DNA from: Candidatus Methylomirabilis sp.
Lineage (GTDB): Bacteria > Methylomirabilota > Methylomirabilia > Methylomirabilales > Methylomirabilaceae
Assembly (NCBI RefSeq): GCF_028716865.1
Contig: NZ_JAQUOY010000001.1
Location: forward strand, 1 to 64,000
DNA: 64,000 nt
Direction of reading: 5' to 3'
Shown: positions 9,382-41,397 of the stretch, piece by piece
How the letters are laid out: every line of letters begins with the position of its first letter
Position numbering within the stretch: position 1 is the stretch's first letter
Notes under the pieces: generated by a model
Told to the model about the DNA's origin: nothing
Databases searched by the model: none
Seen by the model: only the letters and a program-made list of their open reading frames with translations
Made by a program: the position numbers and the translations under genes

Positions 9382-10917
9382 CTACTGTGAAGAGGGCAGC
9401 GTTCCAAACAACTGCTGCCACGAGTCAAGATGCTCCTGGGCATAGGCCAGGGCCTCTTCGCGGCTGTTGGTGAGCCCCGTTGCCTGAGCCTCCCGCAGAT
9501 GATCAAGCACGAATCCCAGGAAAGGGCCTGGCGCAATGCCGAACAGTTCGATCAGATCGTCGCCCCGTAGGATGGGCTGTAGCCGGCTTGCCAGAAACTC
9601 GGTTCTGTAAAATCGGAACGCCTCACGCAGGAAGACCTGATGCCGGCTGAGCTCCTCGGTTTTCCCGCCAAAGGTTGCCAGCAGATCCGCCCAGGAGTGT
9701 AACAACACAACGGGAGCAGCCTCACCCACTTCTCGAAAGAAACGATACAGCGCCCTGACGGTGACAGGCGCTCTGCTCGAAAGATGGATCGGTCGCAGAT
9801 GATGTTGCTCGATGTCGGTTATGAGGCTCTTCGCCCGGCAACCCAGTCGAAGGCGTTCGCACAGGCGAGTGAGGATCGGCAGGCCGGCCTGCTCGTGCCC
9901 CAGGAACCGGACGCGACCATTCGCTAGCACGCTCCGGGTCTCCGGCTTGCCGATGTCGTGCAGGAACCCCAGCAGCTTGAGGATGGCGGTCTCGGTGACG
10001 CCCGCCTCGATTTCCCGGTCAAGCCGTTCGCGTAACCAGATCGCCTCGTCAGGAAAGAGCTGCTCAAGGTTTGTGAACAGCAGCTCGACAGACTCAAGCG
10101 TCTGAAGCGAGTGTTCCCAGAGGGGCAGACGATGCGGCGTGCTCGCCGGAACTGACTTGAGCGCCTCGACCTCCGGGACCAGTCCCTTCAGAAGCTGCAA
10201 GGTGTCCAGGTGCTCGATCCAGGGCGCTGCGGGGACCGTATCGAGAATCCTGAACAGCTCGTCACGCAAACGCTCTCCGGCCACTGTCCCGAGGAGTGAT
10301 GCACGCTCGATGATCCACCGCCGAGTGGCCTCCTCGACGGTGAAGCCAAGCTCTGCAGCCAGGCGGACTGCCCTGATCAGGCGAAGCGGATCACGCTCGA
10401 ATGCCGATGGGGTAAGGGCTCGCAGGCGCTTTTCCCTCAGGTCGTTCAGCCCGCCCGATGGATCGATCACAGACAGGGGGTTGGAGGTTGGGGGTTGGTG
10501 GGCAGGGGTGTCGATGCGTACGGCAAGGGCATTGACGGTGAAATCGCGAGCTACCAGATCAGCCTCGATTGTCTCGCCCTTCGGCCGACTGATGTCGAGC
10601 TGGACGATCATCCCTTCAGAGCGGATGATGACTCGAACCGTCTCCGGATCGAGACGAATGAGGCTGCCTTCCAGCGCGGCGATCAGATCGCGACCGAATT
10701 GTTCCGGTTTCCCCCAGATCACCAGATCGAGGTCGATCCGCCTCATCCTGCTACGCCTGTCCTGAGCCACGTCGAAGGAACCAAGCAGGAGATCACGCAG
10801 GTACCCACCGACCAGATACAGGGGGCCTAGCCTGCCGGCGGCCGCGACCGCCTCGACAGCCCGAAGATATGGGTTGCGCCGAAGCTCATCCACGCCGTAG
10901 AAGGATGCCGGTTTCAT
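9382..10917 (-). CDS. cca: CCA tRNA nucleotidyltransferase / poly(A) polymerase family protein with HD domain
   Basis: A 511-residue class II nucleotidyltransferase. The head domain has LYLVGGYLRDLLLG and the metal-binding DLDLVIWG, then the RDFTVNALA motif; an HD domain follows (FLHDIGKPETR), as in bacterial Cca and related proteins. The likely job is adding or repairing CCA at tRNA 3' ends, although PcnB-type polyadenylation is possible. ATG 10917 overlaps the nth stop in an ATGA junction, which decides the start. Two odd insertions stand out: SFDVAQDRRSRM between the glycine loop and the DxD motif, encoded by the 23-bp repeat at 10753-10775, and a G-rich stretch near 10474-10507 encoding HQPPTSNPLSV. 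Confidence 0.85.
   Translation of the reverse strand: MKPASFYGVDELRRNPYLRAVEAVAAAGRLGPLYLVGGYLRDLLLGSFDVAQDRRSRMRRIDLDLVIWGKPEQFGRDLIAALEGSLIRLDPETVRVIIRSEGMIVQLDISRPKGETIEADLVARDFTVNALAVRIDTPAHQPPTSNPLSVIDPSGGLNDLREKRLRALTPSAFERDPLRLIRAVRLAAELGFTVEEATRRWIIERASLLGTVAGERLRDELFRILDTVPAAPWIEHLDTLQLLKGLVPEVEALKSVPASTPHRLPLWEHSLQTLESVELLFTNLEQLFPDEAIWLRERLDREIEAGVTETAILKLLGFLHDIGKPETRSVLANGRVRFLGHEQAGLPILTRLCERLRLGCRAKSLITDIEQHHLRPIHLSSRAPVTVRALYRFFREVGEAAPVVLLHSWADLLATFGGKTEELSRHQVFLREAFRFYRTEFLASRLQPILRGDDLIELFGIAPGPFLGFVLDHLREAQATGLTNSREEALAYAQEHLDSWQQLFGTLPSSQ
10753..10775. repeat. Dispersed 23-bp repeat, copy 2
   Basis: One mismatch from the copy at 7718-7740. It sits inside cca between the nucleotide-binding glycine loop and the catalytic DxD, read as FDVAQDRRS, while copy 1 is read in another frame (STWLRAGVA). 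Confidence 0.7.
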
Positions 10918-18552: not shown

Positions 18553-18616
18553 TTTGGGATATAGTTGGCCTCCGGGCGCTCTTACCATGTTGCTTCGCTT
18601 TTGAACTGCTGAAAAA

Positions 18617-18668
18617 AGGCTGAAGGTCAATAGACTGAAGGTCCAAGTATCCTAAAAGCCTTCAGCCT
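18617..18668. repeat. Inverted repeat in the lepA leader (family copy 1)
   Basis: AGGCTGAAGG (18617-18626) and CCTTCAGCCT (18659-18668) form perfect 10-bp arms around a 32-base loop that itself contains GACTGAAGG. A related element with the same arms and a similar right flank (AAAYACCT then T-rich) occurs at 25280-25327 before polA. The right flank runs to within a few bases of the lepA ATG. Confidence 0.75.
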
Positions 18669-18684
18669 AAACACCTATTTTGGT

Positions 18685-20493
18685 ATGGCGATCAACCTGA
18701 AACAGATCCGCAACTTCTCCATCATTGCCCACATCGATCATGGAAAGTCAACCCTGGCCGATCGGATTCTGGAGGCCACCGGGGCGCTGCAGCCTCGTGA
18801 GATGGAGGCCCAAGTCCTGGACCATATGGATCTCGAGCGGGAACGGGGTATTACCATCAAGGCGAAGGCCGTTCGTCTCCACTACAAGCCGCCGGGCGGG
18901 CAAGAGTATATTCTGAACCTGATCGACACTCCCGGCCATGTGGACTTTAGCTACGAGGTCTCGCGGAGCCTCTGCGCGTGCGAGGGCGCGCTGCTCGTGA
19001 TCGATGCCGTCCAGGGAGTAGAGGCACAGACGCTCGCCAATGTTCACCTCGCCATGGAGCATGACCTGGCCATCATCCCGGTCATCAATAAAATTGACCT
19101 GCCGAACGCCGATATTGCACGGGTGAAGGCGCAGATAGAGGAGACCCTGGCCATCGATGCCTCGGAGGCGATCCTGTGCAGCGCCAAACAGGGGATCGGC
19201 ACTGAGGAGGTGATCGAAGCGGTCATCAAGCGAATTCCGCCTCCCGGTGGGTCCGCAGACGCTCCGCTGAAGGCGCTGATCTTCGACTCCTCATTCGACC
19301 CGTATCAAGGTGTGATCGTGTATGTCCGGTTGTACGAAGGCGTTGTGCGTCCCAGGATGCGGATATCCCTGATGTCCACCGGCGCTGCGTTCGAGGTATT
19401 ACAGGTCGGTGTCTTCACCCCTCAGATGCGTCCCGTCGATCTCCTGTCAGCCGGAGAGGTTGGATACATCATTGCCGGGATCAAGGACGTACGTCACACC
19501 AGGGTAGGGGACACCATTACGGCCGAAGATAGACCTGCAATCAGGCCCCTGCCTGGCTTCAAAGAGGTCCGGCCCATGGTGTTTGCCGGTCTGTATCCGA
19601 CCGAGAGCGAGCAGTACCTGGAGTTGAAGGAAGCGCTGGAGAAGCTCCGCCTTAACGATTTTTCCTTTAGCTTTGAGCCGGAGACCTCGCTGGCCCTCGG
19701 CTTCGGTTTCCGATGCGGTTTTCTCGGCTTACTCCACATGGAGATCATCCAGGAGCGGTTGGAGCGTGAGTTCGGCTTGACGCTGATTACCACCGCTCCG
19801 ACCGTAGTCTACCGGGTGGCCAAGAGGGACGGATCCGTGGTTGAGATAGATAATCCCAGCGATCTTCCTCTCCAGCAGCAGATCGAACGGGTTGAGGAGC
19901 CATACATCAAGGCCTCTATCATGGCGCCGGGTGAGTATGTCGGCCAAATCTTTGGGCTCTGCCAGGAGAAGCGTGGGATTCAGTGCGGTGTCGAGTATAT
20001 GGAGGGTGGTCGAGTTCTCATTACCTACGACCTGCCGCTCAACGAGATCGTCATGGATTTTTACGATCGGCTGAAGTCGGCAACACGTGGCTACGCCTCC
20101 CTGGACTACGAATTCCTCGATTATCGGGAGGGTCACCTGGCAAAGCTGGATATCCTGGTGAACGATGAGCCGGTTGACGCACTCTCCTGCATCGTCCCGA
20201 GGGAGCAGGCATATCTGAGGGGCCGAATGCTGGTGGAGCGGATGCGAGAGCTGATCCCCAGGCAGCTCTTCGAGGTAGTCATTCAGGCTGCGCTAGGCGG
20301 CAAGGTCATCGCGCGGGACAGCGTGCGCCCTCTGCGCAAAAACGTGACGGCCAAATGCTATGGCGGAGACATCACCCGTAAGCGAAAGCTGCTTGAGCGT
20401 CAGAAGGAGGGGAAGCGCAGGATGAAGCAGGTAGGCAGGGTCGAGATCCCACAGGAGGCCTTCATGGCGGTGCTGAAGGTGAAAAGCCCATGA
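18685..20493 (+). CDS. lepA: Elongation factor 4 (LepA GTPase)
   Basis: A 602-residue translational GTPase that back-translocates ribosomes and supports growth under stress. G1 is AHIDHGKST (residues ~16-24), switch II is [12 protein letters not shown] and NKIDLPNA is G4. The LepA-specific C-terminal domain ([25 protein letters not shown]) ends the protein. No Shine-Dalgarno is visible before ATG 18685: the leader ends in the repeat element's T-rich flank. It overlaps lepB by four bases. Confidence 0.97.
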
Positions 20494-23455: not shown

Positions 23456-23542
23456 TCTGTTATCAAGAGCGATGGTGGGCTGTGGAGCCAGACGGATTGA
23501 TCTGATGGGTCTGCGGATGAATGAATGGGAACCGATCGAATA

Positions 23543-24163
23543 ATGGATCAAGAAAGCGAAGAAGCTAAAACATTGACAAGCGACAACGCCCAGGAGGGTT
23601 CTGTTGCCCCTGCGACCGAGTTAGAGTCGACGATCAGCACGCTACAGGCCGGCCTCAAGGAAAAGACTGCTGAGATAGAGTCGCTCAACGACCGCCTCCT
23701 TCGCTTGCAAGCGGAGTTTGAGAACTACAAGAAGCGAGCGGCCCGCGAGCGGGGCGAGTTCGTAAGGTTTGCGAATGAAGGGCTACTCTTGGAATTGCTG
23801 CCTGTCGTAGACAGTCTGGAGCATGCTGTCGTCACGACCAGGTCGGGAATAGACGCTCAAGGTGTCGCCGAGGGTCTTGATGTCATTCGTCGGCTTTTTC
23901 AGGCAACATTGGAGAAGGCAGGGGTGAAGTCCATCGAGGCGTTGGGGCATGAGTTCGATCCGAACTTCCATCAGGCTGTGGCTCAGGTGGAGTCGACTGA
24001 TGGCCGAGACAACATTGCGATCGAGGAGGTCCGGAAAGGGTACCTTCTGGAAGGACGTTTGCTGCGGCCGGCGATGGTGAAGGTCTCCAAGACGAGAGTT
24101 TCGAGTTCTGAGTTTCGAGTGTCGAGTGCCGATGAGGATGAACCCGAAACCCGGAACGTGTAA
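23543..24163 (+). CDS. grpE: Nucleotide exchange factor GrpE
   Basis: A 206-residue GrpE, the DnaK nucleotide exchange factor. A long N-terminal coiled coil includes RLLRLQAEFENYKKRAARER; the beta domain ends with EVRKGYLLEGRLLRPAMVKVSK, the family hallmark. I prefer ATG 23543 (MDQESEE) over ATG 23525. The last ~20 residues after KVSK are unusual: they are encoded by two near-identical 14-base units (24096-24109 and 24110-24123) and look like a repeat-derived tail. Confidence 0.94.
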   Translation: MDQESEEAKTLTSDNAQEGSVAPATELESTISTLQAGLKEKTAEIESLNDRLLRLQAEFENYKKRAARERGEFVRFANEGLLLELLPVVDSLEHAVVTTRSGIDAQGVAEGLDVIRRLFQATLEKAGVKSIEALGHEFDPNFHQAVAQVESTDGRDNIAIEEVRKGYLLEGRLLRPAMVKVSKTRVSSSEFRVSSADEDEPETRNV

Positions 24164-25279: not shown

Positions 25280-25327
25280 AGGCTGAAGGTAGATAGAAGG
25301 TTTTGAGGACTCTTCAGCCTTCAGCCT
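25280..25327. repeat. Inverted repeat in the polA leader (family copy 2)
   Basis: AGGCTGAAGG (25280-25289) and CCTTCAGCCT (25318-25327) repeat the arms found at 18617-18668. The flank to the right (AAATACCTGCTTTT) also resembles the other copy. It separates dnaJ from polA and could form a stem in a transcript from either strand. Confidence 0.75.
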
Positions 25328-25382
25328 AAATACCTGCTTTTAGCACTGACCGTTGATCGCTATTCTCCGAGGACGCTAACCC

Positions 25383-28004
25383 ATGGCAGGCAGATCGCTA
25401 TATCTTATCGACGGAAGTTCCTACCTGTTTCGGGCCTACCATGCGCTTCCACCCCTCAGTAACAGCGAGGGGATTCCGACCGGAGCCGTATACGGTTTCA
25501 TCAACATGCTCCTGAAGATTATTCGGGATGAGCGTCCGGAGGCCCTGGTCGTGGTCTTTGATACTGCAGGACCGACCGAACGGCATGAGCGATACGCCGA
25601 CTATAAGGCGAATCGCGCGCAGATGCCGGACGATCTGAGTCGTCAAATTCCTTATATCCATCGGGTGGTGGAGGCGATGCGAATCCCGCTTCTGATGCAA
25701 CAGGGACAAGAGGCGGATGATCTGATCGGCTCGCTGGCAAGGCAGGCCGAGGCGCAGGACTTTCACGTGACCATTGTCACGGGCGATAAGGACATGCTCC
25801 AACTCATTGGACCCGAGATCCGGGTCTATGATTCGATGAAGGAGAAGGTCTACGGCGAATCGGAGGTCCTGGAGCGCTTCGGCGTGCCCCCTGGTCAGGT
25901 GGTGGAGGTGATGGGGTTGATGGGCGATCCGATCGACAACATCCCTGGCGTGCGCGGGATCGGGGAGAAGACCGCCAGGAGCCTTATCCAGCAATTCGGG
26001 AGCATCGAAGGGATGATCACTCGCCTGCATGAGATCAAGTCCGCGAAGGTTCGGGAGATTCTGAGAAGCCAGGTCGAGCAAGCTCGTCTCAGTCGGGATC
26101 TGGCCCGTCTCAGGACGGATCTCCAGGTGAGTGTGGATCTGGGACAGGTTGCGCTACGTGAGCCTGATAACGTCGCTCTCCAGGCCCTCTTTCGGGAGTT
26201 AGGTTTCACGGGACTCCAGCGGGCATTTACCCCCGTGACCTCGCGCAGCTCGCTCCGCATGGTCGTTATTGATCGCGAGGAGGAGATCGGAGAGACCGTC
26301 AAGGAACTCCTGGATTCCGATAGCGTGGCTATCGCTGTTGCGCGTAATGGTAGCGACTCAGGTGACGGCGAGCTCTATGGCCTTGCCTTCTGTAAAGAGC
26401 CTGATGTCGCCCTCTGTTGCTTTCCCAGTGCGATGACCGGCTCTTATTTTGAGCGCCTGCATCCTGTCTTGGCCGGCGAGAAACCCGCGAAGATCGGCCA
26501 CGACCTCAAGCGGATCATAGCCACCTTCAGGAAGAAGGACGTCGTCCTGGGCGGGCTCTCCTTTGACACCATGGTGGCTTCCTATCTCCTGAACCCTAAC
26601 CGATCGGATCACTCCCTTGCGGCTTTGGTGCTGGAGCAGTTGGGTATGAAGTACGAGGAGGAGCCGGGGACCAAGGATAGAGGAGACGGACGGGAGGAGG
26701 CAATGAGGCGGGCAGCCGAAGAGGCTCACCTTGCGTGGCAACTCAAAAATGTGTTGCTTCCGAGGCTTGAGCAGTCAGGGCTGCTGTCGCTGTTTAAAAC
26801 GATCGAGATGCCGCTGATCGAGGTCTTGGCCTCGATGGAGGAAGTCGGGTTCAGAGTTGATATCGACCAGCTCGGTGAGCTGGGTAAAGAGTTGGAGAGC
26901 CAGCTCGGCAGGCTGGAGTCACGGATCTTCGCTCTGGCGGGCGAGCACTTTAACATTAATTCGCCGAAGCAGTTGGCGGATGTATTATTTCAGCGACTGA
27001 AGCTCACGCCGCTGAAGCGGACCAAGACCGGCTATTCCACCAATGTGGAGGTACTTCAGCGGTTGGCCATGACCCACGAGCTCCCTGCGGAGGTCCTCAA
27101 TTATCGGAGCCTTACGAAACTGAAATCCACCTATGTTGATGTGCTGCTCAGGCTTGCTGATCGTACGAGTGGCCGTATCCATACATCATTCAATCAGACG
27201 GTGACCGCCACAGGACGCCTGAGTTCCAGTGAGCCGAATCTCCAGAATATCCCAATTCGCACCGAGATCGGGCGGCGGATCCGACAGGCGTTCGTTGCCT
27301 CGGAGGGTCATTGGCTCCTGTCAGCCGACTATTCCCAGATCGAGCTACGGATCCTGGCGCACCTTTCCCAGGATCAGGCGCTCATCGCGGCCTTCACGGC
27401 AGGGGCTGATGTGCATCGCAGTACTGCAGCCGAAATCTTCACGGTGCAGCCGGAGGCGGTGACGGCGGAGATGCGACGACGGGCAAAGGTGATCAACTTC
27501 GGCATCATCTACGGGATGAGTCCCTTTGGCCTGGCCTCGGAGCTCGATACGTCACAGGAGGAAGCCGCCCTGTACATCGACCGCTATTTTCAGATCTATC
27601 ACGGGGTCAAGGCCTTTATTGACCGAACGATCCGCGAGGCCAGGGAACTCGGCTTCGTGACGACGCTCTGGGGACGTCGCCGGGCGATCCCGGAGCTCAA
27701 GAGCTCCGACCAGGCGGTTCGGCAACTCGGGGAGCGGTTGGCAGTGAACTCGCCGATTCAAGGATCGGCCGCAGATCTGATCAAGGTCGCGATGATCGCC
27801 ATCTTCCGACGCCTGAGGTCGGAAAGGTTGGGAACCAGAATGATTCTTCAGATCCACGATGAGTTGCTATTTGAGGTGCCCGAAGCGGAGTTGGACGTCG
27901 CCAAGCGAGCGGCCACCGAAGAGATGGAGCGAGCGGCCACGCTCCGCGTTCTCCTGCAGGTAGACCTCGGGGTTGGAACGAGTTGGGCTGAGGCCCATGC
28001 TTAA
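25383..28004 (+). CDS. polA: DNA polymerase I
   Basis: An 873-residue Pol I: 5' nuclease domain (residues ~1-290), a 3'-5' exonuclease-like domain (~290-470) and the polymerase domain. Polymerase motifs A (DYSQIELRILAHLSQD), B (RRRAKVINFGIIYGMSPFG) and C (QIHDELLFEV) are intact. The exonuclease-like domain has lost its metal-binding acids: where the DxE motif should be it reads AIAVARNG, and the later Asp positions read LKRII and AAEEAHLAW. Proofreading is therefore probably absent, as in Taq polymerase. ATG 25383 follows CCGAGGA. It overlaps coaE. Confidence 0.96.
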   Translation: MAGRSLYLIDGSSYLFRAYHALPPLSNSEGIPTGAVYGFINMLLKIIRDERPEALVVVFDTAGPTERHERYADYKANRAQMPDDLSRQIPYIHRVVEAMRIPLLMQQGQEADDLIGSLARQAEAQDFHVTIVTGDKDMLQLIGPEIRVYDSMKEKVYGESEVLERFGVPPGQVVEVMGLMGDPIDNIPGVRGIGEKTARSLIQQFGSIEGMITRLHEIKSAKVREILRSQVEQARLSRDLARLRTDLQVSVDLGQVALREPDNVALQALFRELGFTGLQRAFTPVTSRSSLRMVVIDREEEIGETVKELLDSDSVAIAVARNGSDSGDGELYGLAFCKEPDVALCCFPSAMTGSYFERLHPVLAGEKPAKIGHDLKRIIATFRKKDVVLGGLSFDTMVASYLLNPNRSDHSLAALVLEQLGMKYEEEPGTKDRGDGREEAMRRAAEEAHLAWQLKNVLLPRLEQSGLLSLFKTIEMPLIEVLASMEEVGFRVDIDQLGELGKELESQLGRLESRIFALAGEHFNINSPKQLADVLFQRLKLTPLKRTKTGYSTNVEVLQRLAMTHELPAEVLNYRSLTKLKSTYVDVLLRLADRTSGRIHTSFNQTVTATGRLSSSEPNLQNIPIRTEIGRRIRQAFVASEGHWLLSADYSQIELRILAHLSQDQALIAAFTAGADVHRSTAAEIFTVQPEAVTAEMRRRAKVINFGIIYGMSPFGLASELDTSQEEAALYIDRYFQIYHGVKAFIDRTIREARELGFVTTLWGRRRAIPELKSSDQAVRQLGERLAVNSPIQGSAADLIKVAMIAIFRRLRSERLGTRMILQIHDELLFEVPEAELDVAKRAATEEMERAATLRVLLQVDLGVGTSWAEAHA

Positions 28005-31910: not shown

Positions 31911-32902
31911 GGATGGCGTACACGCTTGCAGAAGAAGTGCGAAGCGCGAGGTCCGAGGTGCAAAAGGAGCGTGCCCCGCACGTGTTCACCTATCGCCGTA
32001 TCGTGAAGCGGCTGGCGGATAGCGGCGTAGAGAGCGCGCTGCTCGACGCGGCGTGCCTTATGGAGGCCGCGTCAGACGTCCCGCGGTGGCAGTTTATCCT
32101 GGACCCGGAGCAACCGATTCCCTCGAATAGATCTCGTCTCTTTGAATCGATGCTATCCCGACGCCTTGCCAGGGAGCCGATTGCCTATATCCTCGGGGTA
32201 AAGGAGTTCTGGTCTCTTCCTCTTGCGGTGAGCCCAGATGTCCTGATCCCGAGACCGGAAACCGAAACGCTTGTCGAGGCCGCCCTGGAAAAGGTGCAGC
32301 GTGCAGCGTGCAGCGTGCAGCATGGACCGGCATCGTCCCCAATCCCCAATCCCCAATCCCCAATCCCTGTTATCGTGGACCTCGGCACCGGTAGCGGCGC
32401 GATTGCCTTGGCGCTCGCGGTCGAGATGCCTCACGCGCTCGTGTACGCCATCGATCGTTCGCCGGGCGCCTGCCGAATCGCCCAGCGGAACATAGAAGCG
32501 CTGGGGCTGATGAGCAGGGTTCACTGCGTACAGGGTGACCTGCTTGAGCCGCTTCGGACAATCGACGGTGGGGGAGGATGTGACCTGATCGTGTCAAATC
32601 CTCCGTACATCCCTTCCGGAGACTGTGGCACCCTGTCTCCGGAGATCGCAGCTTACGAGCCTCTCGATGCCATAGATGGCGGCCCGGACGGTCTACGCTA
32701 TTACCGGCGAATCATCGAAGAGGCCCCCCACTATCTTCGCGAAGGCGGCTGGCTGGCTTTCGAGGTCGGCGACGGTCAGGCGCCGGCCATAATGGAAATG
32801 GTTCGGAAGACAGAAGGCTTCGGGTCGGCCGAGGTGAGGCAGGATGTAGCCGGCCGTGACCGAGTCGTCTGTGCGCCACGGCGGGGGAGGGCGCATGGAT
32901 AG
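31907..32902 (+). CDS. prmC: Release factor glutamine methyltransferase
   Basis: A 331-residue PrmC/HemK that methylates the GGQ glutamine of release factors. Helical N-terminal domain, then a Rossmann domain with [14 protein letters not shown] and the NPPY motif ([12 protein letters not shown]). Compared with the family it carries an extra ~20-residue linker just before DLGTGSG, encoded by two arrays of four heptamers (32294-32364). The N terminus ([13 protein letters not shown]) is also repeat-derived and matches the hisC tail. GTG 31907 overlaps the prfA stop; ATG 31913 is an alternative. The 3' end overlaps murA. Confidence 0.93.
32294..32364 (+). repeat. Two heptamer tandem arrays inside prmC
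   Basis: Four exact copies of GTGCAGC (32294-32321), 15 unique bases, then four exact copies of CCCCAAT (32337-32364). Each array is 28 bases, so losing or gaining one unit shifts the prmC reading frame. Translated part: [20 protein letters not shown] and on. Confidence 0.97.
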
Positions 32903-41302: not shown

Positions 41303-41397
41303 GGAGGCGGAATGGGCCCGGTGGCCCTCCTGGTCTTCAAAACCAGCGCACCCGCTAATACCGGGTTGGTGGGTTCGACCCCCACACGCCTCCGCCA
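41303..41397 (+). tRNA. selC: tRNA-Sec (UCA anticodon), selC
   Basis: A 95-base tRNA with the marks of selenocysteine tRNA: an extended D stem GGGCC/GGCCC with a four-base loop, anticodon stem CTGGT/ACCAG with loop CTTCAAA (anticodon TCA), a long variable arm (ACCCG...CGGGT) and T arm GTGGG/CCCAC. The acceptor GGAGGCG pairs with CGCCTCC; an eighth pair would be a G-A mismatch. Discriminator G and an encoded CCA follow. The host therefore reads UGA as selenocysteine in some genes. Confidence 0.95.

Follow-up and report, generated by a model that had tools for sequence, protein, structure and literature searches.

The lepA and polA Leaders

The window, i.e., the whole stretch of 64,000 nucleotides of Candidatus Methylomirabilis DNA that was analyzed, contains the genes lepA (LepA_C, 1.2e-48) and polA (4.1e-162), and each of these ORFs lies downstream of a short inverted repeat (Table 1). 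The preliminary description had placed repeats with 10-bp arms at 18617-18668 and 25280-25327, and these coordinates are exact: the pattern AGGCTGAAGG-N-CCTTCAGCCT matches the window twice, at these two places, and is not matched in any of 100 dinucleotide shuffles. The related right flank described at the same time is also real, being CCTTCAGCCTAAACACCT in the lepA copy and CCTTCAGCCTAAATACCT in the polA copy. The left side is an array in which, at lepA, the first unit is followed by a second, degenerate unit (AATAGACTGAAGGTC), and the outer ends of this copy are degenerate as well, with GAACTGCTGA... and ...CACCTATTTTGGT in place of GTAACTACTCAGG and CCTGAGTAGTTAC. Both copies are gene-less and, at ~50-80 bp, as short as MITEs, and the tail that follows the polA copy, CTTTTAGCACTGACCGTTGATCGCTATT, recurs together with the polA-type copy at other loci of the genus.

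Table 1. Positions of the repeats, their parts and the adjacent genes in the window.
Feature	Position	Strand	Remarks
CTGAAG S23 element, probable decayed MITE-like copy	18604..18684	.	abuts the lepA start codon; outer limits by eye
Left heptamer array, AGGCTGAAGG TCAATAG ACTGAAGGTC	18617..18643	+	
Right arm CCTTCAGCCTAAACACCT	18659..18676	-	inverted copy of family end AGGTGTTTAGGCTGAAGG
lepA	18685..20493	+	
Probable older copy of the CTGAAG S23 element, polA leader	25280..25336	.	orthologous in 7/14 resolved genus genomes
Tail of the polA copy, CTTTTAGCACTGACCGTTGATCGCTATT	25337..25374	+	contains CTGANNG-type heptamers
polA	25383..28004	+	

Among lags of 4-13, strong periodic runs occur in the window solely at lag 7 (n = 3), and lag 14 gives two. 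Heptamers are also seen away from the two leaders. At 24096-24157, at the 3′ end of ORF 23525-24163 and just before dnaJ, GAGTTTC heptamers are followed by inverted AACCCGAAACCCGG, and this heptamer type is that of the S23 genes L292-L294 (see below). Positions 32294-32367 hold the adjacent arrays (GTGCAGC)4 and (CCCCAAT)4, the latter resembling a cyanobacterial STRR unit, and heptamer runs AGGGNNT and GGTTGGN lie at 2816-2855 and 10476-10501. A selenocysteine tRNA gene is present at 41303-41393, and an Rfam scan of the window at the gathering threshold gave three tRNA matches only, with no cis-regulatory family.

The lepA ATG at 18685 is the first start codon past the upstream in-frame stop, and no Shine-Dalgarno match of at least 3 nt is found 4-14 nt upstream of it. 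The absence of a visible ribosome-binding site is confined to lepA; in the polA leader, a Shine-Dalgarno-like AGGA lies downstream of the repeat. The lepA leader is resolved in 14 of the 15 genus genomes (in one, the contig ends), and the CTGAAG element is found in 1/14, i.e., in this genome alone. When 13 lepA leaders were scored for a Shine-Dalgarno match of at least 3 nt, eight had none, two had GAG only, and three (G003, G005, and G009) had AAGG, which is provided by the heptamer unit itself. Seven relatives have a repeat-free lepA leader of 30-32 bp, in six of which the match is absent and in one of which (G007) it is just 3 nt. Since repeat-free lepA leaders mostly have no Shine-Dalgarno either, there was no ancestral ribosome-binding site for the repeat to replace, and the replacement put forward in the preliminary description is not supported. 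Six resolved lepA leaders comprise 100-120 bp of other sequence, and CTGANNG/TCAGCNN heptamer units were recognized by eye in the leaders of G002, G003, G005, and G009. It had further been suggested that the repeat could stop upstream transcription; no sense-strand terminator (a stem and then a T-run) is seen in 18617-18684, and an intrinsic sense terminator at lepA was rejected. The hairpin in the lepA leader is probably incidental.

The CTGAAG Family and Its Intact Element

The two repeats had been suspected to hint at a larger family, and this was right and indeed understated, since the family is dispersed with copies at many unrelated loci. The 10-mer arm occurs 86 times genome-wide vs. 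six times for the reversed pattern, and the genome-wide search for the full arm-N-arm pattern that had been proposed gives 9 matches per strand (some of them nested, and with other contigs included) vs. 0. The family end reads (GTAACTACTC)AGGTNNNTAG(A/G)CTGAAG(G)CTGAAGG and is inverted on the opposite side, so that terminal inverted repeats are present as in MITEs, and the arms are arrays of CTGAAGG or CTGAAGA. In this genome, a + arm precedes a - arm at a distance of up to 450 bp in only 17 of 56 clusters, some of which are likely to be chance coding matches.

The interiors of some copies resembled the C-terminus of a four-helix-bundle protein, which was the clue to the parent element. A PF05635 profile search of the genome gives exactly one gene (119 aa, G000:C42:7207-7521, E 1.1e-32), and this gene is flanked by the family ends, CTACTCAGGTAGATAGACTGAAGGCTGAAGG on the left and CCTTCAGCCTTCAGCCTAAACGCCTGAGTAGTTAC on the right. 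Its product is a TIGR02436 "four helix bundle protein" (2.8e-33; 23S_rRNA_IVP, 5.1e-33) with relatives of solved structure in 2gsc (XCC0516, 1.1e-23) and 2rld (2.6e-6), and the Xanthomonas protein is described as a homopentamer (PMC4990558). The intact element is ~450 bp in length, with outer ends GTAACTACTC...GAGTAGTTAC, inverted CTGAAG/CTGAAGG heptamer arrays, and a single S23/PF05635 gene, and a protein-coding frame lies just downstream of this sole S23 gene. The S23 gene is under purifying selection, with dN/dS values of 0.05-0.29 over 8 usable pairs (the misaligned pair L306/L309 was left out), about 0.07-0.11 for L284, L285, and L287, which look orthologous by their flanks, and 0.17 for the CTGAAG-type gene of this genome (G000) and G001.

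Deletion derivatives of this element were found within and beyond this genome. One copy here (L028/L432) keeps 66 bp of the start and 110 bp of the end of the S23 interior, with the middle missing. Fifteen copies were read in the genus member richest in ends, G002 (60 + 69 = 129 matches), and these span 65 to 361 bp between the first and last 17-bp end match. The S23 interior is matched by 12 of them, in 11 cases in two separated pieces, such that the middle is missing or replaced, and is not matched in the other three (L410, L413, and L419). A single 129-bp deletion form occurs at four G002 loci (L414, L420, L423, and L424). Despite its 129 end matches, none of the six S23 genes of G002 has the CTGAAG heptamer.

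Both termini can be read in 21 unique elements, of which nine have flush flanking duplications of 8 bp that agree at 7/8 or 8/8 positions (five are exact), vs. an expectation of 0.00 from mismatched left/right pairs, and the other 12 have no 7-of-8 duplication. Duplications of other lengths occur about as often as by chance or close to it (4 bp, 3 vs. 1.55; 5 bp, 1 vs. 0.60; 6 bp, 2 vs. 0.05; 7 and 9-12 bp, none). L039, which is from this genome, is among the 8-of-8 cases, and L028 also has an 8/8 duplication, but its left end is slightly altered and it was left out of the count. Like MITEs, therefore, the family has a target-site duplication, in this case of 8 bp. A unit with defined ends has been inserted with an 8-bp duplication and has spread as gene-less copies. 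No transposase is found inside the wide end pairs searched for one, and the pairs L430, L431, L436, and L437, considered as a transposase-bearing long version, were rejected as they hold ordinary-looking host genes (ORFs, by eye).

The 17-bp end pattern is found in 12/15 genus genomes and in 0/80 other genomes of the phylum (control matches, 0), while the 25-bp end pattern is found in at least 116 stretches in other groups. Among the listed matches to the latter are records with the titles Deltaproteobacteria, Nitrospira, Nitrospinota, Anammoxibacter, and Brocadiaceae, together with Dehalococcoidia, Spartobacteria, Verrucomicrobiia, Desantisbacteria, and Marinifilum. Outside the phylum, among the matches listed, 82 of 122 ends are paired with another end no more than 900 bp away and 5/122 lie beside a match to the S23 protein of this genome, and 78 of the 82 paired family members in other groups span 53-230 bp. 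PF05635 is present in 33 of the 36 genomes searched among those with the 25-bp end pattern. All seven CTGAAG-labelled S23 proteins and L359, which has a degenerate array, form one clade (support 100/99) that includes this genus, deltaproteobacterial genomes, and one Spartobacteria genome. Hence the CTGAAG ends are spread patchily across phyla together with one S23 protein clade.

S23 Genes Between Inverted Heptamer Arrays

The arrangement of the CTGAAG element is a general one, as it recurs at most of the S23 genes examined and in several bacterial phyla. In the phylum, where 60 of 105 PF05635 places were examined, the best inverted repeat between the two flanks scores at least 14 in 41/60, vs. 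3/180 mismatched pairs. Lag-7 runs occur near these genes in 34/58 left and 40/59 right flanks, vs. 0/60 within genes and 1/55 + 4/57 (5/112) distant flanks, and other lags, lag 14 excepted, give 0-4. In a sample of 30 genomes from outside the phylum, with one S23 gene each, lag-7 runs are present in 16/29 + 14/30 flanks vs. 1/53 distant flanks, and the inverted repeat in 17/30 vs. 7/150. For named plasmids, including those of cyanobacteria, a heptamer run is seen in at least one S23 flank for 11 of the 12 fetched, with TAGGGAG in Nostoc edaphicum, CAGGTGA in Anabaena sp. 90, and CAGGGAA in Nostoc sp. C052, and the S23 flank of a Gemmatirosa plasmid has a period of 8. On plasmids of Pseudanabaena and Anabaena, heptamer-flanked S23 genes (L398 and L403) also occur with cas6 on one side and cas4 on the other.

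The heptamers were compared in 92 intact S23 genes (7 of the 12 plasmid loci were included, and genes with stops or of fewer than 85 aa were excluded). Heptamers are present on both sides of 68/92, and in 40 of these 68 the same heptamer (at least 6/7) is inverted, compared with 6/68 in direct orientation and 2.3% of mismatched pairs. A heptamer is shared by 35-70% of S23 gene pairs at 60% protein identity or above and by 1-3% of those below 60%, and the TCAGC type likewise unites proteins of the genus and of a Pseudanabaena plasmid. Each S23 protein clade therefore has its own heptamer. Three residues, Gln33, Glu47, and Glu70, are 99-100% conserved in the S23 proteins. A universal S23-element end, GTAACTAC, was considered and rejected, as it is found in 6/102 left flanks vs. 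4/102 in the control.

A scan for duplications in the other heptamer families gave hits that are mostly heptamer artefacts; only two look real, namely GAAATAG at L327, which is 7 bp long and directly abuts a 12/12 inverted end, and CAAAATG at L340. When the G013 S23 element is set against a candidate empty site in G005, the flanks match and the junction is highly diverged; at this locus (L265, G013:C67) the S23 element splits a gene that is uninterrupted in G005, a restriction-system DNA methyltransferase by eye. Separately, at PF13366 loci of the same order (L371-L389), GxxExxY/PDDEXK_3 genes are accompanied by inverted tandem arrays with periods of 8-10 (CGCAGATTA and CCAAGACGC), and an inverted repeat is present at 16/19 of these loci vs. 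17/95 controls, where the control is probably raised by a shared unit.

Origin of the Repeats and Possible Mobilization

Given the intact S23 gene between the same ends, the graded deletion derivatives, the 8-bp duplications, and the presence or absence of copies at orthologous sites, the repeats before lepA and polA are very probably both gene-less, internally deleted, MITE-like relics of the S23 heptamer mobile element. Clear outer ends and target duplications are not visible in the decayed lepA and polA copies, and for this reason we infer the mobility of both from the family.

A close parallel is the 23S rRNA intervening sequence (IVS) with an S23p ORF, such as that of Coxiella burnetii, in which, as in the element described here, a single S23p/PF05635 ORF lies inside complementary ends. 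Tandem GACAGAT heptamers that vary among strains lie just upstream of the S23p ORF (PMC4990558), and earlier authors proposed a role in mobility for its product (cited in PMC4990558). In contrast to the rRNA IVS, the present element is located in intergenic and leader DNA, its sites being the lepA and polA leaders with no rRNA helix, and it is flanked by 8-bp target duplications and accompanied by many derivatives without a gene. In addition, the Coxiella heptamers are described on the upstream side only in the text available to us (PMC4990558), whereas here there are arrays on both sides. With MITEs the family shares short, gene-less copies, inverted ends, target duplications, and many loci (PMC10969869), but its parent carries an S23 gene without a recognised transposase and its ends are heptamer arrays; the text of that review makes no mention of heptamers, intervening sequences, or S23. 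Heptameric repeats have been described as GGGAATC in Xanthomonas and GGGGA(C/T)T in Nostoc (PMC4692102) and as TAACTGA in Beggiatoaceae, with a patchy distribution across phyla (PMC4679880). Like the family here, those of Xanthomonas are intergenic arrays that often form convergent pairs (PMC4692102), but in the accessible parts of both reports they are not linked to four-helix-bundle genes and the term "four helix" does not appear (PMC4692102, PMC4679880). An open-access full-text search listed no paper that was seen to connect S23 genes and inverted heptamer arrays with mobility beyond rRNA.

Alternatively, the repeats could be cis-regulatory leader RNAs of core genes, acting as a translation gate or attenuator and selected as such. 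Their predicted stems are indeed stable (z -1.8 at lepA and -2.9 at polA), and the polA-leader element, which is orthologous in seven of the 14 resolved genus genomes (G000, G001, G004, G005, G012, G013, and G014) and not seen in the other seven (in G006 and G010 the leader is 44 bp), is 88-94% identical across species compared with 64-87% at polA third codon positions, and is the more conserved in 15/15 pairs of 6 sequences. Such conservation is consistent with constraint or with homogenization among the copies, and does not in itself prove an RNA role. The confinement of the lepA copy to a single resolved genome, the lack of an Rfam cis-regulatory match, the weak covariation at polA (both sides are changed in 1/35 predicted pairs), and the occurrence of the CTGAAG element at many unrelated loci make a selected leader RNA improbable as an explanation of the repeats, although the polA copy may have been retained for such a role later. 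The association with core-gene leaders is largely a matter of where old copies happened to land.

An origin as ordinary simple-sequence heptamer arrays, by replication slippage and recombination and with no mobile element, is strongly disfavoured and hardly to be entertained. Such arrays are known in Nostoc and in Xanthomonas, each genome of the latter having 70-75 convergent pairs (PMC4692102), and heptamer copy number does differ among members of the present family, but the insertion of a unit is required by the 8-bp target duplications, by the identical deletion form at four loci, by the shared S23 interior, and by the conserved non-repeat outer ends (GTAACTACTC). Of more weight, though still unlikely, is that the copies are MITEs of a conventional IS66-like transposon whose transposase once took the S23 gene as a passenger. 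The GTAAC ends and the duplications of exactly 8 bp resemble those of a classical DDE transposon, and we take the GTAA ends and 8-bp duplications of the CTGAAG element to resemble IS66 in particular. IS66 transposase was searched for in the genus, however, and is absent from 15/15 genomes, and IS66 as the mover was rejected for this reason; moreover, S23 genes generally show no enrichment of GTAACTAC ends in their flanks, and the heptamer-S23 layout is nonetheless general.

If the copies are relics of the S23 element, the S23 protein would bind or recognise its cognate arrays of heptamers, placed at the ends of the DNA, and would take part in mobilization, with the DNA presumably cut either by the S23 protein itself or by another enzyme acting in trans. 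A copy-by-RNA route, as for its homologue Avd, is a possible alternative. Avd of the diversity-generating retroelements is a distant homologue of the S23 protein (NF033474, 1.5e-6; bAvd, cd16375, 2.9e-5; both under the cut-off), as is also stated elsewhere (PMC10053308). Unlike the case in Avd systems, no reverse transcriptase was seen when the sequence adjoining this genome's CTGAAG element was read by eye. Reverse transcriptases are present in 8/15 genus genomes, however, and one of the 35 genus S23 genes (G001:C28) is next to one, and thus the RNA route is still to be considered. At this locus (L438), the reverse transcriptase is directly upstream of the S23 gene, GTTCAAT-like heptamer arrays precede the reverse transcriptase, and heptamer runs flank the S23 gene on both sides.

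More tentatively, and at less than even probability, S23/PF05635 proteins may be the mobilization proteins of a widespread and unrecognised class of transposable elements, in which the clade-specific inverted 7-bp arrays would act as binding ends. The rRNA intervening sequences, and many of the heptamer repeats regarded as "simple" in bacteria, would then derive from this class, and a parallel class with arrays of ~9 bp would carry GxxExxY/PDDEXK_3 (PF13366) genes. The present data extend the heptamer-S23p arrangement of Coxiella, and the idea of its mobility, beyond rRNA. They would tie together three puzzles, namely the S23 genes of rRNA intervening sequences, the orphan genes for four-helix bundles, and the heptameric intergenic repeats of several phyla. 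They would also suggest a role, open to testing, for a large protein family of which structures have been solved (2gsc, 2rld) and for which the pairing of heptamer and protein predicts a measurable DNA-binding specificity.
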